Shown here in pieces: positions 2 through 33,743 of a DNA stretch of 40,944 nt; position 1 is the first letter of the stretch, and each line of letters opens with the position of its first letter. A program made the position numbers and the translations under genes. This DNA comes from Spirochaetaceae bacterium. Lineage in GTDB: Bacteria; Spirochaetota; Spirochaetia; PWKH01. The notes below the pieces were generated by a model. It had not been told where the DNA came from. It ran no database searches and saw only the letters and a list, made by a program, of their open reading frames with translations. The stretch covers positions 1-40,944 of the forward strand of contig PWKH01000104.1 of the NCBI GenBank assembly GCA_003559765.1, written 5' to 3'.

Positions 2-1519
2 CTCTTTTTCCGGGCAGCTGAAACCGATCCTGAGAAACTGTGTTTTTTCATGCTCTCCCCTGCCGAAGAGCGCTGCACCTATGGAGATGTACGCCCCATG
101 ATTACCGCAGCGGCACAGGACCTAGCCGCATCGGGCATACAGCCCGGAGACCGCATCGTGCTCACCGGGAAGAACAGCCCAATGTGGGCGGTCAGCTATT
201 TCTCCATCCTCCATGCCGGCGCAGCAGCCGTACCGATTGACTGGCAGCTTGACTCCGCCGATATCGCCCGGCTGGCATCCTTTGCCCAGGCGGCAGCAGT
301 TATTACCGATGAGGATATCCTCTCCGGTTTTCCCGAAGAAATCAAAGCATCATGCCGCCTCATCTCCTTGAACGAGGAGAGCAGCATGCAGTCCATGTAT
401 GCTGTCTGCCGGCAGGAGCCCGGTTCTGCCGTCCTCCCTGCACGCAGCTGTGATGATCTTGCCGCAGTGATGTTCACCTCCGGCACTACGGGAAACGAGA
501 AAGGGGTCATGCTCACCCATGGAAACCTCTCTCCAACATATTCATGACCGGTCACCGGGACTTCATCGCAGGGGTGCCGGAGGATGTGTATTACGCCCTG
601 CTTCCCCTGCATCACATCTGCACCCTGACCGTCTGCCTCGGAGAGACCGTTCTCCACGGCGCAGCACTTCTCTTTGCCAGACGGATCGTCACCAAGGAAA
701 TCATCAGGGATCTCAGGGAAGGAAGTGTGACCATGTTCGTCGGCATTCCCCTGCTGTACAACAAGATCCTCAAGGCCCTGATGAAGGAAGTGCGGGCAAA
801 GGGAGCAGCCGTCCATCTGCGGAGGGGGACCCCTTTCTCCGGATACCTTCCGACGGTACAACGAGCTCGGGGTGAATTTCGTCCAGGGATACGGACTTAC
901 CGAAACCGCTTCGATTCTCACCCTGAATCCCAAGCACGCCTGCAAATATGAATCAGTGGGCATTCCCCTGCCCCTGGCGGATGCGAGAATTCTGGATGCG
1001 GATGATCAGGGGACCGGGGAAATAGCAGCACGGGGTCCGAATATCACTCAGGGATACTTTCGGAATGAAGCTGAGACCGGGGAGCTTTTTGATGATCAGG
1101 GATATCTGCGCACCGGAGATGTCGGGTATGCCGACCGGCAGGGATATATCTGCCTTACCGGACGAAAGAAGTCCCTGATGGTCACGGAAGGCGGGAAGAA
1201 CGTCTGCCCTGAAGATATTGAGGAGCATTTCCAGCTGTTTCGGCAGATCGAACAGATCATGATAACCGGCTGCATCCGGGATGCCGCCGCCCGATCAGAA
1301 GGGATTGAGGCGCTGGTGCTTCCCAGCAGCGAATACTTCGCCGAAGTCGACGGGCATGCCGTCGAGGAGGAGATCCGAAGGCTCGTCAGGCAGGTGAATG
1401 CCGGACTGCTGCCCTGCCAGCGGATCAGCAGAACGACGGTGCTCGAGGAGCCGCTGGAAATAACCCCTACCCATAAAATCAAACGGGGAAAGGTGCTCGA
1501 AGGGCTTAAGAGAAGCTAA
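2..1519 (+). pseudogene. Decayed long-chain acyl-CoA synthetase (AMP-binding), 5' end outside window
   Basis: This was an ATP-dependent fatty acid-CoA ligase. The open frame runs in from the window edge and carries the family's N-terminal motifs and the P-loop FTSGTTGNEKG (about 475-508). Two lesions break it. Near 527-532 the frame shifts at a CT repeat (aacctctctcc); removing one CT restores HGNLSNIFMTGHRDF. Near 805-818 the frame shifts back, and about 60-80 residues usual between 'YNKI...KGA' and 'GGGPLSPDTFRRYNELG' are missing, so a deletion is likely. After that come YGLTETAS (about 890-915), TGDVGYADRQG and the final catalytic-lysine region THKIKRGK. The CT change alone could be a sequencing error, but the missing segment could not, so I call a pseudogene. 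It converges on the queuosine transporter, with 4 bases of overlap. Confidence 0.8.
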
Positions 1520-29510: not shown

Positions 29511-29543
29511 TTGTCATCATACAGAAATAATCGGAGGAGCATT

Positions 29544-29762
29544 ATGCGGGAAATTGCTGGCCACTGGCCTGGGAGAATCTTTTTACTTGTTCTTTTGCTT
29601 TCTGTGGTGGTGATGGCGGTTCTGGTCGCCCAGGGCATTACGGAAACAGATGTACTGCTGTTCGGGTGGATGACGATGCCCCTGGTTCTCGGGATAGGAT
29701 TTATCCTCGTGTGGCTTGTCGCCTATCTGATCTACTTTTTCCATTTTTGGCCGTACCGGTAA
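29544..29762 (+). CDS. Small two-helix membrane protein, DUF997/YhdT-like
   Basis: 72 residues with two hydrophobic helices (about 12-31 and 42-66) and an aromatic end (YLIYFFHFWPYR). Small proteins of this kind (YhdT, DUF997) lie next to sodium/solute symporters such as PanF. The ATG at 29544 has GGAGGAG at the right distance. It precedes the symporter gene by 15 bases and is probably its accessory subunit. Family membership is judged from shape and context only. Confidence 0.65.
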   Translation: MREIAGHWPGRIFLLVLLLSVVVMAVLVAQGITETDVLLFGWMTMPLVLGIGFILVWLVAYLIYFFHFWPYR

Positions 29763-29777
29763 AAGAAGGAGTTGCCC

Positions 29778-31307
29778 ATGTTTGATTATATTGCATTGGG
29801 GTTGTTTGGACTAGTAATTATCATGCTTGCTGCTTACGGATACCGGATCTCCGCGAAAACCGCAGAAGATTATATGATGGCCGGAAGAACCATCGGCGTA
29901 GTGGTAATGTTTTTTTTCGTGCTCTTCGCCATCAGTTCAAGCTGGACCTTCTACGGGTTTCCAGGAGTACTCTATCTCCACGGTCCCGGATATGTGTTTT
30001 TCATCTGGGGCTCTGTGGCAGGGTTCGCCTGCCTGTATATGTTCCTCGGACCGAGACTCTGGGCGTTATCTAAGCTTAACCGCTACCTCTCACCCGTTGA
30101 AGTGCTTTCCGAGCGGTATGAATCCCGTGCACTGAGAATTATGCTTTCAGTGACTATACTGGCATTTATTGTACCGTATGTAGGAATTCAGCCTCTGGGA
30201 GTCGGCAGAGGGTTTGAAGCCCTTACCGGGATGCCCCTGTGGGTCGGAGCCGCCTATACATCAGTGCTGCTGGTAATCCTGGTGATCCTCGGCGGCATGC
30301 GTATTGTAGCCTGGGTGAATATCTTCCTGGGAACTGTTTATATCACAGCGCTATTGGGCTCGCTCTTTTGGGCGGTCTCGGTGATATTCCCTGAAGCCGG
30401 TCTGGTGCAGGCAGCCCAGGAAATTGTTGTCATCGATTCGCAGAAGCTTACCACCCCGGGACCGTTAGGTGAATACACCCCGGTCCTGCTCATCGGAACC
30501 TTCGTGGTTGGACTCATGGCGTTCTCATGGCCCCACGTTGTCATCGGTGCTATGACCGCCAGGGACAAGACTCTGTTCAAATGGTTTCCCCTGCTGATCT
30601 TCATCTTCGGCGGACTGTTCTTCTACATCATCCCCTTTATCTGGGGCTCTCTGGTAGCACCGGCTGCACTGCCGGGAATCACCGATCCGGCTGAAGCCGA
30701 CCGGGTAGTCCAGACGGTCATCCAGCTGTATCTGCCGAGGTGGTTCGCCGTGTTCGTGCTGATGGGCGTGATTGCCGCGGCTGTTTCCACTGCCGCTGTC
30801 CAGCTGATGACTTCCAGCATTATCGTCGCCAGGGACCTCATCCAGGGCGTACTGAAGCCGGAGGCAAGCGACCGGGAGATTACTACCATCGCCCGGTATT
30901 CAGTTGCAGGAATTGTGGTGATCTCCCTGGGGGTCACCATCTTCGTGCAGCTCGGCATCGGGGAGGAGGCCATGGCGATGTATCTGACCGATGTGTCAGT
31001 GCCGGGATTCGCCCAGTGGGCCCCCGCTCTGGTCGGCGGACTGCTGTGGAAACGGGGCACCCGGCAGGGAGCACTGGCCGGAACCGGCATCGGGGTGCTG
31101 TATCTGCTTGCAGGACTGCTGATTACCGGCTCCGACGGAACCCGGTTCCTGCTGTTTGATCTGCATCCGGTAGTTCCCACCCTCCCGGTGAACGCCCTGG
31201 TATATGTAGTGGTAAGCCTGCTCACCCCGAAACCGAGTGAGCATATCGAGGATATCTTTTTTACTGAAGTGGAGGATTATCTGCTCAGCGACCGTTCAGC
31301 ACAGTAG
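29778..31307 (+). CDS. Sodium:solute symporter (SSS family)
   Basis: A 509-residue transporter with about 13 membrane helices. The family opening AAYGYRISAKTAEDYMMAGRT, the unwound-helix region AISSSWTFYGFPGVLY, and SPVEVLSERYESRALRI are visible, as is GVIAAAVSTAAVQLMTSSII with the small and hydroxyl residues usual at the sodium site. The closest pattern is the pantothenate/monocarboxylate branch. Context (acyl-CoA synthetase and lipoate-ligase parts downstream) suggests a carboxylate such as a fatty acid, lipoate or a related vitamin. ATG 29778 has AGAAGGA 8 bases upstream. Confidence 0.9.
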   Translation: MFDYIALGLFGLVIIMLAAYGYRISAKTAEDYMMAGRTIGVVVMFFFVLFAISSSWTFYGFPGVLYLHGPGYVFFIWGSVAGFACLYMFLGPRLWALSKLNRYLSPVEVLSERYESRALRIMLSVTILAFIVPYVGIQPLGVGRGFEALTGMPLWVGAAYTSVLLVILVILGGMRIVAWVNIFLGTVYITALLGSLFWAVSVIFPEAGLVQAAQEIVVIDSQKLTTPGPLGEYTPVLLIGTFVVGLMAFSWPHVVIGAMTARDKTLFKWFPLLIFIFGGLFFYIIPFIWGSLVAPAALPGITDPAEADRVVQTVIQLYLPRWFAVFVLMGVIAAAVSTAAVQLMTSSIIVARDLIQGVLKPEASDREITTIARYSVAGIVVISLGVTIFVQLGIGEEAMAMYLTDVSVPGFAQWAPALVGGLLWKRGTRQGALAGTGIGVLYLLAGLLITGSDGTRFLLFDLHPVVPTLPVNALVYVVVSLLTPKPSEHIEDIFFTEVEDYLLSDRSAQ

Positions 31308-31322
31308 AGGAGAGAAGATTGA

Positions 31323-32750
31323 ATGAAACGCAATGAACAGACCTGGAGGCTGCTGGTCAACACCAAGGGACAGGCGGTAGACCTGTATGCCTATCCTTCA
31401 GCGCTGATTGAAGGAAGACTGGCAGGAAAATATATGCTCTCAAAGGAGAAACTTCCTGATACGGTGGTAGTGCAGAGCTTCACCGGCAAGGGGATCCTTG
31501 CGGGAGCGGATGTGGAAATTGACGCATCTGCAGCGAAAAACCTGCAGATGCAGACAGCCAAGATTCCCCGTTCGGGACGGGGCGGACCCAAGGCAGTCGG
31601 CACCTATGACTATGCCGATTTGATTAAACAGGCATCAAAGAAGTTCACCCCGGCAGAACCGGAACTCGATGACCCGGCGGTGCTGCTGTACACCTCCGGG
31701 ACCACCGGAAACCCGAAGGGGGTGATGCTGACTCACCGCAACTTTATCTCTCAGACGGAACTGGTTGACGCCATCATGCCGATGTACAGCAAGGATACCA
31801 TCATCCTGGTGCTGCCGCTGTTCCATGTCTACGGACTTTCCAACGGGCTGGTCTGCGGAACCCGCAACGGCTGCACCATGTCCCTGATTCCCCAGTACAG
31901 CCCGGCAAAGCTTCTTGATACCATCAGTTCATCCTCAGCCACCCTGCTGATAGCCGTGCCCAGCATGTACATGCATCTGCTGCAGCTTGCCCGGGCTCGG
32001 CAGACAAAGATTCCCAAGAGTCTGAGGCTGTGCGTATCAGGGGGCGCTCCCCTGCCGGTGAACACCCTCAACGAGTTTATTGAACTCTTCGACACGCAGA
32101 TCGCCGAGGGATACGGCCTGACTGAAACCACCTCAGCTGTATCGCTGAATAAGACCGGAGAACAGTTCAAAGCGGGATCCATCGGTCCTTCTTCCCCGGG
32201 GATTGAGATGAAGGTAGTGGATGACAGTTTCCAGGAAGTGCCCGACAATACTGAAGGAGAGATTATCATCAGCGGCGGGGTGGTCACCCCGGGCTACTGG
32301 AACAACCGGGAAGCCACCGAAGAAATGATCCGCGACCAGTGGCTGCTGACGGGAGATCTCGGATACCGGGACAGCGAAGGATTTTTCTTCATCACCGACC
32401 GGAAGAAGGACATCATCGTACGGGGTGGGTTCAATATTTCGCCCCGGGAAATTGAAGATGTCCTCGCCGAACACCCTGCGGTTGAGGAATCGGCCATGGT
32501 AGCGGTAACGGACAAACGGGGACGGGAGACCATGAAGGCCTTTGTCGTGCTCAAGGAAGGCAAACAGACCGATGCCTCGGAGCTGCTTCAGCTGTGCCGG
32601 GAGCTGCTGGCTGAATACAAGATTCCAAAGGTGATTGAATTCCGGGAAATCCTGCCTAAGAGTGCGACAGGGAAAATCCTGCGCAAGGAGCTTCGGGATG
32701 AGCAGGGTTCCGACCAGCGGCTTATTCTCAAGGAGGCCCCCAATGAGTGA
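31323..32750 (+). CDS. Chimera 1: lipoate/biotin-ligase-like N-terminus joined to acyl-CoA synthetase C-terminal part
   Basis: 475 residues. Residues 1 to about 92 do not fit an acyl-CoA synthetase; they resemble the opening of the lipoate/biotin protein ligase family (TWRLLVNT, then LPDTVVVQSF, then IPRSGRGGP in the place of the RRxxGGG motif). From about residue 93 (GTYDYADLIKQASKKF) the protein is an AMP-forming acyl-CoA synthetase lacking its N-terminal 130 residues: LLYTSGTTGNPKGVMLTH (122-138), YGLTETT (264-270), TGDLGYRD, DRKKDIIVRGGFNISP and the final catalytic Lys in SATGKILRKEL. The missing N-terminus is present in the next gene. GAGGAGAG precedes the ATG. The stop overlaps the next start by 8 bases. 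Confidence 0.75.
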   Translation: MKRNEQTWRLLVNTKGQAVDLYAYPSALIEGRLAGKYMLSKEKLPDTVVVQSFTGKGILAGADVEIDASAAKNLQMQTAKIPRSGRGGPKAVGTYDYADLIKQASKKFTPAEPELDDPAVLLYTSGTTGNPKGVMLTHRNFISQTELVDAIMPMYSKDTIILVLPLFHVYGLSNGLVCGTRNGCTMSLIPQYSPAKLLDTISSSSATLLIAVPSMYMHLLQLARARQTKIPKSLRLCVSGGAPLPVNTLNEFIELFDTQIAEGYGLTETTSAVSLNKTGEQFKAGSIGPSSPGIEMKVVDDSFQEVPDNTEGEIIISGGVVTPGYWNNREATEEMIRDQWLLTGDLGYRDSEGFFFITDRKKDIIVRGGFNISPREIEDVLAEHPAVEESAMVAVTDKRGRETMKAFVVLKEGKQTDASELLQLCRELLAEYKIPKVIEFREILPKSATGKILRKELRDEQGSDQRLILKEAPNE

Positions 32751-33636
32751 GTTCCGAAATCTTTCACATATGCTCGATACGGTTACAAAGGCCTACAAGC
32801 GCAAGGATGCTCTGTATTTTGAAGGTAAACGCATCTCCTACCGCGAACTGAACGAGCAGGCAAACAAAGCGGCGAACGCCCTTGCCTCCATGGGAATTTC
32901 CAAGGGAGACCGGGTGGCGATGATGCTTCCCAACATTCCTGAATTCGTCTACTGCTTTTTTGGCGTCCAGAAAATCGGGGCAGTTGCCGTACCCTTCAAT
33001 TCGATGTACAAAGGCCGGGAGATCACCTTCATTCTGAATGACAGCCAGTCCAAGGCCCTGATCACCCTCAGCAATTTTGCAAACCTGATCAATGAGATCA
33101 GGGAGGACGTGCCGTCTCTGGAGCATGTCATTCTTACCGGCCAGCGGACCCTGGTCTATGTGACCCCGGAGGCGACGCTCAATCTCCAGATCGTCTGCGG
33201 GAAGAGCAAATTTTCCTCCCCGGAAGAGGCTTTCCGGAAAATCGGTGAGATCTTCGTCGATGTGCTTCAGTCCTACGGCGTAGACGCATGGTATAAACAC
33301 CGGGGCGGAGTGCGGGTCAAGGGGAAAAAGATCGCCACGATCCTCGTCTCGGAAATAGAGAACCTGCTGACGGTCAACGTGGTGCTGTTTCTCGCCCATC
33401 TCGACACCAGGGACCTGTTTAAAGTGGTCTGGGTCACTCCGGAAATAAAGGACAAAGTCCTGGAGCCCTCCACGTCAGTTGAGGAGGAGACCGGCACCAG
33501 ACCGGACACCGGGGAGTTTACCGATGCCCTGATGAAGGTGCTGAAAAACCGCCTGGACATAGAGATCGAACCCGGTTCCATGAAGCGGGATGAACTGTTC
33601 GGATATGAAAAAGTGCTGTCTTTGGCAGTTAAATAG
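32743..33636 (+). CDS. Chimera 2: acyl-CoA synthetase N-terminus joined to lipoate/biotin-ligase-like C-terminal part
   Basis: 297 residues. Residues 1 to about 133 are the N-terminal part of an acyl-CoA synthetase: ISYRELNEQANKAANAL, KGDRVAMMLPNIPEF, AVPFNSMYKGREITFILND and LEHVILTG. The nucleotide-binding P-loop that should follow is absent. From about 134 (QRTLVYVTPEATLNL) the sequence resembles the rest of a lipoate/biotin protein ligase: FRKIGEIFVDVLQSYGV, then RVKGKKIATILV (192-203) in the place of the catalytic lysine motif, then LEPSTSVEEETG and the helix ending KRDELFGYEKVL. Together with gene 31323 the parts give one synthetase of about 515 and one ligase of about 255 residues. Read directly coupled to chimera 1. 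Confidence 0.75.
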   Translation: MSEFRNLSHMLDTVTKAYKRKDALYFEGKRISYRELNEQANKAANALASMGISKGDRVAMMLPNIPEFVYCFFGVQKIGAVAVPFNSMYKGREITFILNDSQSKALITLSNFANLINEIREDVPSLEHVILTGQRTLVYVTPEATLNLQIVCGKSKFSSPEEAFRKIGEIFVDVLQSYGVDAWYKHRGGVRVKGKKIATILVSEIENLLTVNVVLFLAHLDTRDLFKVVWVTPEIKDKVLEPSTSVEEETGTRPDTGEFTDALMKVLKNRLDIEIEPGSMKRDELFGYEKVLSLAVK

Positions 33637-33643
33637 CTCAATA

Positions 33644-33670
33644 GAAGGCCGGCAGATTCTGCCGGCCTTC
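33644..33670 (+). terminator. Hairpin closing the symporter/chimera operon
   Basis: GAAGGCCGGCA-GATTC-TGCCGGCCTTC is a perfect 11-base-pair stem with a 5-base loop, 7 bases after the chimera 2 stop. No clear T-run follows (ATTCGGGT), so termination may be partial or factor-assisted, but the place and strength fit an operon end. Confidence 0.6.
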
Positions 33671-33743
33671 ATTCGGGTAAATACTCATTGCACACCCCTT
33701 TGTTTTGTGATTCAATAACGTAAATGAGTTGCAGGAGCAGGAC

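Follow-up and report, generated by a model that had tools for sequence, protein, structure and literature searches.

A conserved pair of neighbouring genes carrying exchanged halves of an acyl-CoA synthetase and a lipoate-ligase-like protein

Split enzymes are common, and so are fused ones. Mammals reportedly activate lipoate with an enzyme of the acyl-CoA synthetase (ACS) type and transfer it with an LplA-like lipoyltransferase (Fujiwara et al. 2001, cited in PMC7253636). We describe a pair of overlapping genes, P0001 and P0002, on a 40,944-nucleotide contig from a Spirochaetaceae bacterium (PWKH01000104.1 of assembly GCA_003559765.1; the whole stretch is referred to as the window), in which an ACS and an LplA-like ligase appear as reciprocally exchanged halves. 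P0001 joins an N-terminal ligase part (LigN) to the C-terminal part of the ACS (AcsC), and P0002 joins the N-terminal ACS part (AcsN) to the remainder of the ligase (LigC). Our analysis confirms this exchange of halves between neighbouring genes. The ACS and ligase families are already known, and the crossed architecture is the new part. To our knowledge, a conserved gene pair with exchanged enzyme halves, in which neither chain is a complete enzyme, is undescribed; no description of a reciprocal half-exchange between two unrelated enzymes was found in the open-licence literature searched.

Like the ACSs of the ANL family (PF00501/PF13193, PRK06187; solved relative FadD13, 3r44), the rejoined ACS sequence is complete and its motifs are intact. 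Here, however, it is spread over two chains, is cut before the ATP-binding loop, and each piece is fused to part of another enzyme. The two ligase halves are colinear with LplA-like proteins and keep the lysine of the LplA/LipB/LIPT1-type ligases and transferases (PF21948), but the cut lies inside an altered RRxxGGG loop, and an LplB-type accessory domain is not seen on either chain. In archaeal LplA-LplB, likewise a two-chain lipoate ligase, the complete catalytic domain and the accessory domain reside on separate proteins (PMC10332631). A preliminary description of the window had drawn this comparison, which holds for the number of chains but is otherwise loose: here the cut runs through the active-site loop of the catalytic domain, whose two parts, on P0001 and P0002, are crossed with a second enzyme instead of forming separate, complete subunits. 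The mammalian pair shares with the system proposed here the combination of ACS-type activation and LplA-like transfer; in contrast, it consists of two separate intact enzymes, and they act on lipoate, which is a candidate substrate here. The closest intact ligase relatives found are LplA-like proteins of Desulfobacterota (L147-L149, L150-L167), which, unlike the present pair, have the RRxxGGG loop and for which an ACS partner was not seen. The genes for three of them (L147, L148 and L149; ~370 residues, RRVGGGG) are flanked by a TRAP transporter gene on one side and by a 1-deoxyxylulose-5-phosphate synthase-like (DXS-like) gene on the other.

The Pfam AMP-binding match (PF00501) of P0001 is confined to profile positions 151-384 (E 2.1e-63) and is accompanied by AMP-binding_C (PF13193), while P0002 matches positions 5-123 of the AMP-binding profile (E 1.1e-31). 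AcsN is recognised by Pfam in all 51 of 51 P0002 relatives. On the 531 positions of NCBIfam PRK06187 the two pieces occupy 8-141 (P0002) and 146-522 (P0001), with no overlap. Singly they score 120 and 389 bits, respectively, both under the family cut-off of 476 bits; rejoined (residues 1-133 of P0002 with 93-475 of P0001) they reach 515 bits. The pieces therefore make up one complete ACS with neither duplication nor real gap, and a full-length AMP-binding domain with its C-terminal domain is obtained after rejoining only. All of the ACS catalytic motifs listed (YTSGTTGxPKG, YGLTE, TGD, DRKKD and the C-terminal lysine) sit on P0001, in which Thr124, Gly126, Thr127, Gly129, Pro131, Lys132, Gly133, Glu268, Asp345, Arg360 and Lys451 are invariant among 48 sequences.

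The ligase side of the swap is more divergent than the ACS side. P0002 matches LplA-B_cat (PF21948) over profile positions 73-199 (E 4.8e-09, over the curated cut-off), and among 51 P0002 relatives LigC matches this model of the LplA catalytic domain in 48. LigN searched alone against Pfam gave no match. In profile-profile comparisons (hhalign) with the intact LplA-like proteins, which came from Desulfobacterota, LigN gave an E-value of 5e-6, against 0.09 for a reversed-sequence control, LigC gave 4e-21, and the rejoined ligase aligned colinearly at 1.5e-24; a sequence comparison of the rejoined ligase with solved structures gave no match. P0001 carries the N-terminal strands of the ligase together with its altered glycine loop, and P0002 carries the lysine; besides this Lys196, R135, W183, Y184, G188, R191, E241 and P242 of LigC are invariant. 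Single-chain models of P0001 and P0002 (pLDDT 77 and 82, pTM 0.59 and 0.51) show the secondary structure expected, and Foldseek matches both models to ANL enzymes. The preliminary description had read P0001 as a lipoate-ligase-like start followed by an ACS without its N-terminus, and P0002 as the reverse. Pfam, NCBIfam and profile-profile comparison agree with this when the proteins are searched piecewise (complementary ACS pieces, LigC over the Pfam cut-off, LigN ligase-like by profile-profile comparison), and the overlapping reading frames, open through both joins, and the KGKKIATI lysine motif are as it had reported (Table 1).

Among 60 related genomes searched, 7 others contain full-length P0002 relatives (50-75% identity), each adjoined by a P0001 relative. 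A wider scan, over 84,980 species genomes, gave 70 loci in 69 assemblies, with amino-acid identity falling to ~45%. The search for the same pair in relatives, suggested in the preliminary description, thus found it in several phyla: the carriers are Spirochaetota, Desulfobacterales, Syntrophobacterales, other deltaproteobacterial bins, Fibrobacterota/Chitinivibrionales, WOR-3 and a few other bins. Two of the 7 genomes from the smaller search are single contigs (G029, G049), and the sole named cultured carrier is the type strain Alkalispirochaeta alkalica DSM 8900 (L062). The order LigN-AcsC-AcsN-LigC is complete and on one strand in 61 of the 70 loci, the others being interrupted by contig ends or runs of N, damaged (L093) or unlinked (L045), and the spacing between the genes ranges from -50 to ~+165 bases among intact relatives. 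Occurrence is sporadic, with the pair in 12 of 393 Spirochaetota genomes, in 9 of 395 from the phylum of the Syntrophobacterales carrier (Desulfobacterota) and in 3 of 168, plus one contig-end case, from that of the Chitinivibrionales carrier (Fibrobacterota). Two intact separate genes in relatives would have pointed to a misassembly or a unique break, but the searches of these 393, 395 and 168 genomes found no intact ligase of the same subfamily. A ligase adjoining the nearest intact ACS genes (L104-L113), sought as the ancestral arrangement, was not found either.

The crossed pair was not found on viral contigs; among plasmids, 1390 records had ACS-type matches, of which none spanned the whole hybrid, and defence families gave no match. 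The only natural single-chain fusion (L093) is a damaged copy in a metagenome-assembled genome (MAG) without much of both ACS parts and was not used. Genes lying far apart in G061 and G070 stand beside N runs (scaffold gaps) and were not counted as real separation, and for a P0001 type without a partner in G828 the contig ends at that point.

Misassembly or rearrangement had been put forward as the plain alternative in the preliminary description. The source genome is indeed a draft of 189 contigs, but the same joins recur in the 70 loci from independent assemblies despite their divergence. The joins are therefore due neither to chance nor to misassembly, and the relatives already refute a recent break unique to the source genome, leaving this explanation a negligible probability.

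Purifying selection acts on each of the four pieces: in pairs of relatives for which both rates were computable, the nonsynonymous rate (dN) is well below the synonymous rate (dS) in each piece, with most ratios at ~0.02-0.3. Between pieces, the pairwise distances correlate at 0.77-0.89; the best conserved piece is AcsN, with a mean distance of 0.40. The tree of the joined proteins, which comprises a Spirochaetota-dominated clade and a mixed Desulfobacterota/Fibrobacterota/WOR-3 clade, shows one old family. The join positions are common to relatives, as is expected from a single event. The best fit is a single exchange that would have preceded the divergence of these lineages, followed by some transfer from phylum to phylum. 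Direct repeats common to the two joins do not exceed chance (mean longest match 5.84, compared with 5.89 at random positions), which makes a conserved recombination site unlikely. Within the window, an 8-base match, GCGGACCC, occurs near both joins; it is out of reading-frame register and is not kept in distant relatives.

The MAG G989 (PVC group bin CSSed11_184) carries the P0001 relative behind a symporter gene and followed by an unrelated SDR-type gene on one contig, and the P0002 relative on a separate contig, adjoining an amidase gene. Since both are kept at full length while unlinked, this case speaks for a joint requirement of the two proteins even when they are not made from one message; it comes from one MAG, in which a binning error is possible. 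The overlap of the two genes in the window had been taken to fit equal production. The 8-base overlap stands, but equal production from a single message is not essential, because the genes are unlinked in this genome. In G403 both genes of the pair are damaged, having decayed together (L115:2642-3976).

Retention of the crossed arrangement in ~70 loci of several phyla suggests that the chains must interlock, and their sequences indicate that P0001 and P0002 probably reassemble both folds as an obligate interlocked heterodimer. We infer the physical reassembly, the order of the reactions and the acceptor as follows. An ancient reciprocal exchange would have cut the genes for an ACS and for an LplA-like ligase, both in loops, and crossed their halves. 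Upon association, each chain would complete the fold of the other, giving one ACS beside one ligase-type acyltransferase. The Na+ symporter encoded upstream would import a carboxylic acid, the ACS would convert it to acyl-AMP or acyl-CoA, and from there the acyl group would be handed on by the ligase-type domain, with a protein lysine as the probable acceptor. ANL enzymes and LplA alike act via acyl-adenylates, which would make a hand-over from ACS to ligase chemically natural, as in the mammalian pair. A direct relay of the acyl-adenylate between the two domains can be envisaged, although we propose it only tentatively. Equally speculative is the idea that the swap took place at the contact point of a pre-existing ACS-ligase complex, which would keep the three-dimensional structure while exchanging connectivity and would set the ligase loop against the ACS for direct hand-over of the acyl-adenylate. 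Should reassembly take place, it would show that a reciprocal exchange of chains can become fixed in evolution and make two different enzymes permanently inseparable, and the pair would constitute a natural two-way complementation system and a route to finding further such pairs. A candidate system for transporter-coupled acyl activation and transfer would also be added.

Several observations weigh against an active ligase acting on lipoate in such a heterodimer. In place of the RRxxGGG substrate loop the window encodes PRSGRGG, and relatives often have PRxGRxx; with this glycine-rich loop altered throughout the relatives and cut by the swap, ligase activity may have been lost or changed. LipA is present in most carriers, as is an ordinary LplA or LipB, and in two carriers without LipA the GcvH-like proteins apparently lack the lipoylated lysine. 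The altered and cut loop, the other LplA/LipB enzymes in most carriers and the fact that every clear catalytic motif belongs to the ACS are also what the main rival explanation builds on, in which the ACS is rebuilt from both chains and the ligase halves are a mere docking clamp with no transferase activity. We nevertheless regard a clamp as unlikely: the invariant lysine of LigC and its other invariant residues, from R135 to P242, exceed what would be expected of one, and the match to the catalytic LplA model persists in nearly all relatives.

It is far less probable still that the two proteins are independent enzymes, with P0001 an ACS bearing a ligase piece at its N-terminus and P0002 doing an unrelated job. 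The presence of all ACS catalytic motifs on P0001 would suit such an arrangement, but AcsN, the most conserved piece, is exactly what P0001 lacks, and both genes are retained together even when unlinked. Scarcely any weight can be given to a rearrangement inside the cell, either of DNA, with the middle cut out as a circle, or of RNA, by trans-splicing, that would yield an intact ACS and an intact ligase. From its sequence, the LigN-AcsC-AcsN-LigC order is the one in which both frames would be restored once the middle was removed; however, the joins have no shared repeat above chance, the searched genomes yielded no intact copy, and in G989, where the two genes are unlinked, excision in cis cannot occur. 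Reassembly of both folds by an interlocked P0001-P0002 heterodimer is the reading that we favour.

The pair belongs to a conserved module of four genes, in which it follows genes for a small membrane protein and a sodium:solute symporter (SSF); it usually lies downstream of the symporter gene (54 loci). The small membrane protein has no match in Pfam or NCBIfam. The nearest solved relatives of the symporter, all of them weak, are a choline transporter, the sodium-dependent multivitamin transporter and the monocarboxylate transporter SMCT1, all of the SLC5 family. Since lipoate, biotin and pantothenate are substrates of the multivitamin transporter, lipoate salvage would by analogy be an attractive role, although the evidence for it is thin. 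GcvH-type proteins occur in 21 of 22 carriers. In four carriers (G065, G597, G513 and G688), the completeness of whose genomes is not known, neither a LipA above the cut-off nor a further LplA/LipB was matched, and the pair would therefore be their only ligase; in two of these four, the GcvH-like proteins inspected do not display the customary lipoyl lysine. Taken as a whole, the survey of GcvH, LipA and LplA/LipB neither establishes nor excludes lipoate as the substrate. GcvH-like proteins at L178:2239-3234, L178:3567-4262 and L179:2191-2748, some of them N-terminally extended, seemingly have no lipoylated lysine, and the L178 genes adjoin ferredoxin-type and polysulfide-reductase-type membrane genes.

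Table 1 Features of the crossed gene pair and its conserved module; positions are those of the window unless a locus is named.
Feature	Position	Strand	Evidence or remark
Small membrane protein, ~73 residues, probable symporter accessory; first gene of the conserved module	29541..29762	+	Clustered family, 35 loci
Sodium:solute symporter (SSF)	29772..31307	+	PF00474, E 4e-30; same family in 54 loci
P0001, hybrid protein 1, 475 residues: ligase N-part and ACS C-part	31323..32750	+	Open reading frame (ORF), Pfam
LigN, residues 1 to ~92 of P0001: N-terminal part of LplA-like ligase	31323..31598	+	hhalign against intact LplA-like proteins
PRSGRGG, altered counterpart of the RRxxGGG loop	31566..31586	+	Alignments; first join directly 3'
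AcsC: ACS from just upstream of the ATP-binding loop through the C-terminal domain	31599..32747	+	PF00501 151-384, PF13193
P0002, hybrid protein 2, 297 residues: ACS N-part and ligase C-part	32743..33636	+	ORF, Pfam
P0001/P0002 gene overlap, 8 bases	32743..32750	+	ORF coordinates
AcsN: initial ~133 residues of the ACS	32743..33141	+	PF00501 5-123
LigC: remainder of the ligase catalytic domain	33142..33633	+	PF21948 73-199
Lys196 of P0002, ligase-type lysine within KGKKIATI	33328..33330	+	Invariant, n=51 sequences
Unlinked copies of G989	L045:1425-2324 and L204:684-2471		

Directly after P0002, a GC-rich inverted repeat, GCCGGCAGATTCTGCCGGC (33646-33675), resembles a transcription terminator and precedes a nagA-like gene at 33729. 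At the left end of the window (2-1519), a second AMP-binding gene, fatty acyl-CoA ligase-like, is broken by two frameshifts near 547 and 872, reflecting either a pseudogene or base errors in the draft.
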